Below, in pieces: positions 17,827 to 23,106 of a stretch of DNA of 25,477 nucleotides. This DNA is from a virus. The position numbers and the translations under genes are program-made. Position 1 is the stretch's first letter, and each line of letters begins with the position of its first letter. The notes beneath the pieces are model-generated. The model ran no database searches, was not told the origin of the DNA, and saw nothing but the letters and a program-made list of their open reading frames with translations. The DNA is taken from the IMG/VR virus record IMGVR_UViG_3300042937_000450, positions 1-25,477 of that record; one strand, 5' to 3'.

Positions 17827-17834
17827 TATATTTG
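17827..17834 (+). promoter_or_regulatory. Candidate -7 box TATATTTG
   Basis: TATATTTG fits TAnnTTTG and lies in the 158-base gap after RusA. The nearest TTTG (17808-17811) gives only a 15-base spacer, shorter than the usual 19-21, so support is moderate. Transcription from it would begin near 17840 and include RNA element A and the replication-initiator-like gene. Confidence 0.4.
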
Positions 17835-17850
17835 CTACGGACACAATTCA

Positions 17851-17973
17851 ATAACACGACACAATGGTAAGCAAATCATATTTACAATATACCCTCTTAG
17901 GGTTAATTTACGGAGCGAGTCGTGTCGCAGTCCAACCGTACTTTAACTTACTAAGGGGGCTAATTTTTTGTAT
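17851..17973 (+). ncRNA. Structured leader RNA candidate, element A
   Basis: Shares ATAACACGA (17851-17859) and TTTTTTGTAT (17964-17973) with element B at 22510-22598. CCCTCTTAG (17892-17900) can pair with CTAAGGGGG (17951-17959). Inside this, GGTT (17901-17904) can pair with AACC (17934-17937), GGA with TCC, and GCGA (17915-17918) with TCGC (17925-17928). The six-base loop GTCGTG (17919-17924) is the exact complement of upstream CACGAC (17855-17860), giving a pseudoknot. The T-run ends seven bases before the next ATG. A 39-codon reading frame crosses the same region, so coding is the alternative. Folding is by eye. Confidence 0.45.
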
Positions 17974-17983
17974 CTATGGCTAA
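17864..17983 (+). CDS. Possible 39-residue leader peptide
   Basis: ATG at 17864, TAA at 17981-17983, overlapping the next gene's ATG by eight bases (ATGGCTAA). The peptide begins MVSKSYLQYTLLGLIYGASR and is hydrophobic and aromatic, possibly membrane-inserted. The stop position would allow translational coupling. However, part of the codon set (GCG, GTC, CCG) differs from neighbouring genes, and the same bases form a convincing RNA fold. I rate it as an alternative reading of the gap. Confidence 0.35.
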   Translation: MVSKSYLQYTLLGLIYGASRVAVQPYFNLLRGLIFCIYG

Positions 17984-18722
17984 ACAGTTTGATAAACAAT
18001 GGTACCCTTTTTACCACGATTTATTTAATCGTAGTACAGCCGGGTGGGCTGCTGATAGGGTGGGGGCTTATATACTACTTTTAAACCACCAATGGCAAAA
18101 TGATGGCATACCAACCGATAAAGAAGAGTTGATTTTTATAGCCAAATGCAGCCATGAAACACTGGATAAAGTTTTGCTCAAGTTTTCTCAAGAAAAAAAC
18201 GGGAAACTCTACAATAAAAAAATGGAGATTGTACGAAAAGAACAAATTGAGAAGTACGAAAAACGAGCAAACGCAGGTAAACAGGGCGGTACAGCTAAGT
18301 ATCAAAATCTTAGCAATGCTAAAGCAATGCTTAAGCAAAACGTTAGCAAAAGTCTACCATTAAAGAATAAGAATAAGAATAATACTTTCTTAAAAGAAAG
18401 TGATTATGTTAGTATTTTAACAAATACTAACCTTGAGGTTGATATTAAAAATTTAATGGTTTTACATTTTAGAAACCGTTTGTCTAATAAAAAAACCCTC
18501 ACCGAGGGGGCGGCAAAAATTTTAGTTGCAAAAATTCAAAGCTGGCGATTGCAATATTCCGAGCAAGAAATAAAATCAGCGATTGAAGATGCTATAACAA
18601 ACAATTGGACTGGTATATTTGAGCCTAAAATTAATAAAGCCCAACAGCCTGTAAAAAGCAAAACAGCAACCACAATAACAGTAGCAGAACGCATCCGTAA
18701 AAACTTAGAAAATGAACAATAG
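17976..18722 (+). CDS. Replication initiator/helicase-loader-like protein
   Basis: A 248-residue protein. The N-terminus (WYPFYHDLFNRSTAGWAADRVGAYILLLNHQWQNDGIP, about 8-45) is like the winged-helix DUF1376 or replisome-organiser domain. A basic linker with KQGGTAKY and Lys/Asn-rich sequence follows. The C-terminal half has WRLQYSEQEIKSAIEDAITNNWTGIFEP (about 190-217), which resembles the DnaD-like YxxxGW-type tail of phage initiators. Such proteins bind the phage origin and recruit the host helicase. It lies directly after the recombination cassette, downstream of RNA element A, and overlaps the next gene by 11 bases. Confidence 0.65.
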   Translation: MAKQFDKQWYPFYHDLFNRSTAGWAADRVGAYILLLNHQWQNDGIPTDKEELIFIAKCSHETLDKVLLKFSQEKNGKLYNKKMEIVRKEQIEKYEKRANAGKQGGTAKYQNLSNAKAMLKQNVSKSLPLKNKNKNNTFLKESDYVSILTNTNLEVDIKNLMVLHFRNRLSNKKTLTEGAAKILVAKIQSWRLQYSEQEIKSAIEDAITNNWTGIFEPKINKAQQPVKSKTATTITVAERIRKNLENEQ

Positions 18723-22237: not shown

Positions 22238-22492
22238 ATGCAAGCGCACATAGTAAACTACCATAAAGCATTAGGAGTAGACTTAGGCACTTGGATAGCT
22301 TGCGAGGTATGTAACGCTACATCGGTAGACATACACCACATAATACCCCGTTCTAAGTTTGGCAGCAAAAAAAAGGCAGAACAAGACCACGCCAACAACC
22401 TGGTTGCACTTTGCCGGGTATGTCATAACTTAGCGCACAGCGGAACTATAAGTAAAGAAAAGTTATTTGAAATTACCAAAAATAGAAAATAA
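22238..22492 (+). CDS. HNH endonuclease
   Basis: An 84-residue protein with a complete HNH zinc fold: CEVC (about 23-26), DIHHIIPRSKFG (31-42, containing the catalytic His pair), then DHANNLVALCRVCHNLAH (51-68) with Asn and the second Cys pair. HNH proteins nick or cut DNA. Small free-standing ones in phages act in packaging, or as homing endonucleases. It is about 2.5 kb upstream of the terminase genes, so a packaging role is possible, as is a homing role because another HNH gene follows. Confidence 0.85.
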   Translation: MQAHIVNYHKALGVDLGTWIACEVCNATSVDIHHIIPRSKFGSKKKAEQDHANNLVALCRVCHNLAHSGTISKEKLFEITKNRK

Positions 22493-22509
22493 TATGTATC
22501 TTAGCATAG

Positions 22510-22598
22510 ATAACACGAGGGCAGTCGTGAAGTTAACAAGAAATTTATCCCATTAGGGGGAAGTCCTGCCCGACTGAACCCTGTGGGATTTTTTGTAT
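22510..22598 (+). ncRNA. Structured leader RNA candidate, element B
   Basis: Shares ATAACACGA (22510-22518) and TTTTTTGTAT (22589-22598) with element A. ATCCCA (22547-22552) pairs with TGGGAT (22584-22589), and AGGG (22555-22558) with CCCT (22579-22582). Within, AGTC (22562-22565) pairs with GACT (22572-22575), exposing the loop CTGCCC (22566-22571). This loop is the exact complement of GGGCAG (22519-22524), itself the loop of the local hairpin CACGA/TCGTG (22514-22518 and 22525-22529). A kissing-loop or pseudoknot is possible. The outer stem plus T-run resembles a terminator, eight bases before the HNH start codon. Folding by eye. Confidence 0.5.
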
Positions 22599-22602
22599 AA
22601 AA

Positions 22603-23106
22603 ATGGAAAAAGAAATTTGGAAACCAATTGTTGGATACTCAAGTTATGAAGTTAGCAACATGGGTAATGTTAGAAGTGTAGGCAGATATATGAGAAGTAG
22701 GTGGGGTATCTCATATCTAAAACCTAAATATCTAAAAGGGTGGACAGATAAATTAGGTTATGTTAGGCATACATTTGAGGATAGGAAATTACAATTAACA
22801 CATAGGCTTGTAGCAAAGGCATTTATTCCTAATCCAGATAATAAACCAATGATTAATCACATTGACAACAACCCAAGCAATAACAGAGTAGAAAACCTTC
22901 AATGGTGTACAAACGCAGAAAACTTACAACACGCAGCAAAACAAGGGCGAATGGCTAATAACTCAAGTAAAAAAGTTATAGATGTTACTACGGGTAAAAT
23001 TTATGACAGTATAAAAAGTGCCGCAAATAGCATAGGTGTTATTCCAAATACTTTGCAATACAGAATTATGAGAAACAGCAAAAAGAATACATTTAGATAT
23101 GTATAA
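22603..23106 (+). CDS. NUMOD4-HNH homing endonuclease
   Basis: A 167-residue protein. The first about 60 residues (EIWKPIVGYSSYEVSNMGNVRSVGRYM) are a NUMOD4 DNA-binding module. The middle (LTHRLVAKAFIPNPDNKPMINHIDNNPSNNRVENLQWCTNAEN, about 65-107) is the HNH_3 catalytic core with its His-x-Asn-His-type residues. The last about 45 residues (KVIDVTTGKIYDSIKSAANSIG) are a NUMOD1-like helix-turn-helix. This layout is typical of free-standing or intron-encoded homing endonucleases. It starts immediately after RNA element B, and a 17-codon fragment follows it, which suggests that it may have invaded this locus. Confidence 0.88.
   Translation: MEKEIWKPIVGYSSYEVSNMGNVRSVGRYMRSRWGISYLKPKYLKGWTDKLGYVRHTFEDRKLQLTHRLVAKAFIPNPDNKPMINHIDNNPSNNRVENLQWCTNAENLQHAAKQGRMANNSSKKVIDVTTGKIYDSIKSAANSIGVIPNTLQYRIMRNSKKNTFRYV

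Follow-up and report, generated by a model that had tools for sequence, protein, structure and literature searches.

Immediately upstream of a homing endonuclease gene (HEG) of a virus lies a short stretch, here called element B, that raises the question of whether it encodes a structured leader RNA held together by pairing between two hairpin loops and, if so, what such a leader does. The window analyzed is the whole stretch of 25,477 nucleotides given by positions 1 to 25,477 of IMG/VR virus record IMGVR_UViG_3300042937_000450, and all features of it described below lie on the plus strand. A sequence-only reading had interpreted element B as the second copy of a leader RNA found 4.6 kb away (element A) and had taken the complementarity kept between changed loop bases as covariation evidence for a real tertiary pairing.

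Element B folds into two hairpins with complementary loops

Leader B (22505-22602) is located just 5' of an open reading frame of 167 amino acids (22603-23106) with the Pfam domains NUMOD4 and HNH_3, which bears out the earlier claim that the element directly precedes a homing endonuclease gene. It follows a sequence resembling a -7 box (TATCTTAG, 22497-22504) with one mismatch to the Bacteroidota consensus TAnnTTTG, and transcription is expected to start at about 22509-22512. Hairpin 1 (22514-22529) has a CACGA/UCGUG stem, was identified by folding and by alignment to hairpin 1 of the class I model described below, and can be extended by a weak lower stem between UAA (22511-22513) and UUA (22533-22535). 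A linker of 17 nt (AAGUUAACAAGAAAUUU, 22530-22546), which resembles the class I linker (consensus GUUAAAAGAUAUUU) in the model and in the class I alignments, leads to the terminator-like hairpin 2 (22547-22589), which is supported by folding and by covariation of the stem in relatives. Its stem consists of AUCCCA/UGGGAU (22547-22552 with 22584-22589), AGGG/CCCU (22555-22558 with 22579-22582), and AGUC/GACU (22562-22565 with 22572-22575), the last of which closes the loop. As had been noticed from the letters alone, the loop CUGCCC (22566-22571) is exactly complementary to the upstream kissing strand GGGCAG (22519-22524); we confirmed that each of the two is the entire 6-nt loop of its hairpin, at a spacing of 47 nt. 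According to our own geometry estimate, made without a 3D model, the linker can let all parts form together.

The element folds at -31.2 kcal/mol compared with -20.0 ± 2.8 kcal/mol for shuffled sequences (z = -4.0; 0 of 200 shuffles). Directly at the base of hairpin 2, six consecutive U (22589-22594) end eight bases 5' of the start codon, and with the GC-containing stem (UGGGAU foot) they satisfy the sequence criterion for an intrinsic terminator. Since the stem is long and interrupted, a simple terminator pattern scan did not list it. No Shine-Dalgarno-like sequence was seen between the U-run and the AUG (UUUUUUGUAUAAAAAUG).

Element B and the HEG are part of a mobile cassette of about 664 bp (22439-23102), delimited by empty sites in relatives (e.g., L127, L125, and L132). 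The insertion point lies within an HNH gene starting at 22238, right after the codons for CHNLAH, and empty sites in this gene were found in L125-L148. Besides the promoter, leader B, and the HEG, the cassette brings a new 3' end, and hence C-terminus, for the interrupted gene (22439-22492). A group I intron or another self-splicing carrier of the HEG was considered and rejected: Rfam detected no intron core, and the cassette provides the interrupted gene with a new stop codon.

Elements A and B are cousins rather than copies

Element A has a -7 box (TATATTTG, 17827-17834) and a longer leader (17851-17973), in which the fold shows a long hairpin followed by a U-run. Its upstream kissing strand CACGAC (17855-17860) is complementary to GTCGTG at 17919-17924, in the RNA the loop GUCGUG closed by GCGA/UCGC. 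The open reading frame that follows (17976-18722) encodes a DUF1376 protein, which is probably a replication protein, judging from the genes that follow other leaders; tblastn of this protein against INPHARED gave no match.

The sequences on which the relationship between A and B had been based are present in B (ATAACACGA at 22510-22518, TTTTTTGTAT at 22589-22598). That A and B share ATAACACGA is correct but means little: CACGAC is the kissing strand in A and part of the hairpin 1 stem in B. Since the shared motif has different roles in the two elements, their comparison alone is weak covariation evidence, and the tertiary pairing proposed from it is strongly supported by the independent relatives described below. 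The class I covariance model matches B and leaves A in the same window unmatched; A and B are therefore cousins sharing one architecture, not two copies of one leader. For element A, three relatives (L428-L430) encode a downstream protein that is 85% identical, behind a leader that is almost wholly different, with CGACUAC/GUAGUCG in place of CACGAC/GUCGUG. At the sequence level, this replacement is direct covariation for the predicted pairing of element A.

Close homologues of element B were only near-identical copies (L002 and L003), and therefore its pairing cannot be tested on them. Likewise, a pattern with the conserved stem and a free loop retrieved nothing beyond two near-identical copies, and blastn of A and B against INPHARED gave nothing relevant. 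The check that had been suggested, a search for ATAACACGA followed by TTTTTTGTAT, gave 41 matches in IMG/VR, of which 39 were unrelated and the two real relatives were both near-identical to B. Used as a refutation test, this motif search would have wrongly rejected the leader family.

A family of promoter-anchored phage leaders is found without requiring the pairing

We searched IMG/VR with a pattern that imposes no pairing, consisting of the -7 box TATATTTG, 80-110 free bases, and the terminator end RGCTTTTTTTAT. At least 120 stretches were obtained, representing at least 72 leader clusters; as the U-run is part of the pattern, its conservation in this set is not independent evidence. Among the matches listed, complements between the 5' segment and hairpin 2 of the same leader reached -10 kcal/mol in 54 of 72 clusters, compared with 13.5% of mismatched combinations (permutation z = -17). 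The complements between the loops were 6-10 bp long with a spacing of 51.6 ± 5.6 nt, again among the matches listed, and were present in 51 of the 57 clusters followed by an open reading frame versus 3 of the 15 without one. None of the six listed leaders that have an open reading frame and lack a strong kissing interaction belongs to class I by our own reading. The same pattern applied to 395 Bacteroidia genomes yielded 11 matches, seven of them at tRNA-gene loci, and no kissing leader, which indicates that the leader belongs to phages.

A structural scan of all loci without a promoter was noisy, with reversed sequences giving similar numbers of matches unless both a high score and the right spacing were required, and promoter-anchored scans were therefore adopted. 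With TAnnTTTG as the anchor, 73 matches scored at least 18, compared with 5-12 for three altered boxes; a fourth altered box, which overlaps with the real one, cannot serve as a control. The promoter-anchored scan delivered 91 distinct leaders, 88 of which are followed by an open reading frame on the same strand, with the AUG at a median of 17.5 nt from the start of the U-run and the kissing strand beginning at a median of 16 nt 3' of the -7 box.

The loop-loop pairing covaries within leader classes

We assigned leaders to classes on the basis of spacing and sequence, and the members of the class I and class II alignments were chosen for having the kissing interaction. In class I (15 leaders, loop-loop spacing of about 46-53 nt), each of the seven kissing pairs shows changes in both strands, and Watson-Crick pairs occupy all 105 cells, with G-U pairs absent altogether. 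The whole-structure score of this class was 0.696, compared with 0.256 ± 0.021 after shuffling and at most 0.143 when slid. In class II (14 leaders), the eight kissing pairs are formed in 100% of the cases and five of them covary. As far as comparison of sequences can do so, covariation thus demonstrates the fold and the loop-loop pairing of the leader family. An alternative helix that would exclude the terminator, i.e., an antiterminator, was sought in class I, and none is conserved or covarying. Formation of the lower stem in hairpin 1 leaves a class I linker of only about 10 nt, and by our own geometry estimate, again made without a 3D model, the kissing interaction may compete with this lower stem.

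Element B was placed by a class I covariance model that was built from other phages only, with the kissing interaction left out and the element B sequence excluded. Its best match in the window was element B (22505-22602) with 28.5 bits and a rough E value of 0.0011, and the next match reached 14.4 bits. Based on this match and on the loop complement at 47 nt, element B is a member of class I. The model unites leaders of HEGs (L010, L021, L026, L046, L199, and L206) with leaders of replication genes. Although the model is blind to it, the kissing interaction is found in 27 of 28 distinct families of its matches; the exception is L208, an alpha-type leader whose pairing contains a G-U pair. The pairing is also present, as CUACCACA and its complement, at L383 (2629-2727), a locus that the model was the first to reveal.

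Two further observations were made during these searches. Flavobacterium sp. phage 1/32 (L434, 5666-5795) has a weak class I match of 22.4 bits after a TATATTTG box; this candidate leader lies about 110 bp 5' of a gene, and no strong kissing interaction was seen in it. Loop-loop complements of 10 bp occur on the plus strand in L258 (1924) and L161 (2700) (GACACGGCAA/TTGCCGTGTC and GCCTTTACCT/AGGTAAAGGC, respectively), with unrelated phage genes behind them; in L258, a second, different leader precedes the HEG.

Leaders precede homing endonuclease and replication genes

Diverged relatives of the HEG have upstream regions that show the layout of element B in unrelated sequence, with loop pairs such as UGCGGG/CCCGCA (L010), GUGCGAG/CUCGCAC (L026), AUGGUAG/CUACCAU (L007), and CUGCAAC/GUUGCAG (L078). 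A U-run is present in the HEG leaders found by protein and is more variable. In 124 dereplicated upstream regions of HEGs, loop complements reached -12 kcal/mol in 20, compared with 2.2 expected from dinucleotide shuffles. Since the detector had been tuned on loci already seen by eye, we regard this result as supporting evidence only.

The genes behind the leaders encode mainly replication proteins and homing endonucleases. Of 66 downstream proteins, 13 have DUF6291 and 12 have NUMOD4/HNH domains, the HEG share being inflated because some loci were reached through the HEG; other domains were Lin1244_N, DUF1376, HTH_36, and GIY-YIG, and the PHROG matches were primosomal, replication-initiation, and DnaD-like proteins. 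Specificity of the leader family for homing endonucleases was ruled out, as replication genes are equally common downstream. Among isolates, a leader stands before the replication operon in each of the Flavobacterium phages lillamy, tooticki, and elemo. We assign the metagenomic contigs to Bacteroidota phages on the basis of promoter type and relatives only.

Four leader types were seen swapped before one HEG family (L010, L021, L026, L046, L195, L197, and L199), some with the same promoter flank. Since in some phages leaders of different type are found between the same promoter flank and an almost unchanged HEG, the leaders appear to move as modules. In beta-type leaders (L021, 467-478; L197, L204-L207, L209, L212, and L213), the sequence of the hairpin 1 loop occurs a third time, as UUCGCAGC, between the U-run and the AUG, which could offer the terminator loop an alternative partner in the start region. 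A translational switch operating through this copy was rejected for the family, the copy being absent from most other types. Upstream of the HEG in L048 and L053, sigma-70-like promoters are combined with a long complement between the 5' segment and the terminator loop (CCGUGGA/UCCACGG and UGUCGAGAUA/UAUCUCGACA), which may reflect the same principle in phages that infect other hosts.

A kissing-loop-locked attenuator is the favored function

The reading that we favor, and hold to be probable while short of confident, is that the leader is a cis-acting attenuator locked by the kissing loops that gives low or conditional expression of early genes. We favor it because the leader has a terminator-like foot with a U-run, because the AUG is often near, and because hairpin 1 forms first. 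The transcript would begin a few bases 5' of hairpin 1, so that its 5' end would fold at once, and the next 75 nt would form an intrinsic-terminator hairpin whose loop would be caught by hairpin 1 as it emerges, through 6-10 Watson-Crick base pairs. Next to the base of hairpin 2 lies the U-run, in many cases together with the start codon. With the loops paired, the leader would be doubly off: most RNA polymerases would stop after about 100 nt, and in read-through mRNA the start region would be held against the locked stem. As the AUG is often close by, hairpin 2 should hinder initiation in read-through RNA. Early genes, i.e., those for replication proteins and homing endonucleases, would then be made at a low level or once the lock opens.

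The architecture, the loop-loop pairing, the anchoring to the promoter, and the phage and gene context are established by the comparisons above. Termination itself, its strengthening by the kissing interaction (and thus the sign of this effect), and relief by a trigger are inferred, with no transcript data at hand. As the search of class I for a conserved antiterminator helix found none, the evidence falls short of a two-state switch; the leader may be an attenuator with a fixed setting or an element of another kind.

An alternative is a purely translational or stability leader, whose fold would shield the 5' end or regulate the access of ribosomes, with the U-rich stretch involved in initiation rather than termination. 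Shine-Dalgarno sites are often missing from Bacteroidota genes, and the AUG often abuts the hairpin. Hairpin control of homing endonuclease translation is moreover known in phages (PMC2988022). However, the stem foot with its U-run is that of a canonical intrinsic terminator, and the start codon lies well 3' of the U-run in elemo and in lillamy, where the distance of about 60 nt indicates a role of the U-run beyond that of a translation signal; we consider this reading unlikely.

It is also conceivable that termination yields the functional product, a compact small RNA of about 100 nt with a protected 5' end and a role of its own, for example in binding a host protein, while the gene is expressed by leak-through. 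The full unit from promoter to terminator preceding the gene, the folded 5' end with mutually sequestered loops, and the absence of a conserved alternative helix would all fit such a product. That the gene start is mostly tied to the terminator foot (see the AUG distances and the 88 of 91 leaders above), that the downstream genes are of few functional kinds, and that the loop sequence is unconserved, leaving no fixed target evident, make it rather improbable.

A further proposal, which we consider doubtful, is a new kind of phage RNA switch: an intrinsic terminator would be locked or gated by the helix that its loop forms with the 5' hairpin of the same transcript, and the fast-changing loop pair would act as a private code that prevents cross-talk among leaders of different genes and of competing phages and allows trans control of replication and homing. 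The loop pair might likewise serve as a specificity code in trans, by which matching leaders of other copies or co-infecting phages interact and thereby determine expression, like types being incompatible and unlike types independent. Loop pairs do change fast and perfectly, different leader types precede the same HEG family with shared flanks, and the loops differ in the two-leader phages that we noticed (the window, L258, L309, L315, L378, and L382). Differing loops are nevertheless expected anyway given the high loop diversity, and pairing in cis should outcompete pairing in trans; without data on trans effects, this reading is very unlikely.

Finally, chance complementarity picked out by a pattern-seeking reader, which could appeal to the noise of the promoter-free detector genome-wide and to the many segments comparable to the two chosen loops (a 6-nt match of which is expected in about 1 in 4,000 cases), retains practically no credit and is already refuted for the family by the permutation test, the covariation in classes I and II and for element A, and the matches of the kissing-blind model.

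Relation to known leader RNAs and significance

Rfam 15 at the gathering threshold gave no match in the window or in 18 leader loci, and only chance-level matches appeared at a relaxed threshold. No such leader was described in the open-access literature that we searched, and the family is apparently undescribed and uncatalogued, while its kind, a cis-acting leader RNA, is already known. RNA hairpins repress the phage homing endonucleases T4 I-TevI, segB, and Aeh1 mobE (PMC2988022). As with the present leader, RNA structure expected to restrict expression directly precedes a phage HEG, but the known cases are single hairpins that sequester the ribosome-binding site and are escaped via a late promoter inside or near them, whereas here two hairpins with a loop-loop helix and a terminator-like foot follow the promoter and occur before replication genes too.

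In repZ-type plasmid systems, a pseudoknot activates translation and antisense RNA competes. The paired loop described here instead caps a terminator-like hairpin, and simple promoter scans, the only ones made, revealed no antisense RNA. Common to both is a pairing of loops over a long distance within the leader of a gene for a replication initiator, pseudoknot control being reported for ColIb-P9 repZ, IncB, and IncL/M (cited in PMC10724649). In plasmids, transcription attenuators of the pT181 type likewise have a terminator and loop-loop contacts in a replication gene leader. Their kissing partner is a separate antisense RNA, whereas both loops here are in one transcript. The leaders of c4 antisense RNA and P4 immunity (RF01695) are phage leaders with internal complementarity and premature termination, but there is no Rfam match at the gathering threshold, the hosts differ, and no core sequence is conserved. 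The T4-type hairpins and the plasmid replication pseudoknots are thus nearest in function, and neither has this anatomy.

Across many Bacteroidota phages, among them isolates that have laboratory hosts, the tertiary helix between the loops covaries with unusual clarity. Motif searches miss such families, and only a geometry-based search found the leaders. The naturally independent loop pairs are material with which the effect of a kissing loop on intrinsic termination can be tested, and they may be used as orthogonal RNA parts. The finding points to a layer of RNA that controls replication and homing genes of phages, in a phylum whose phage regulation has been little studied.
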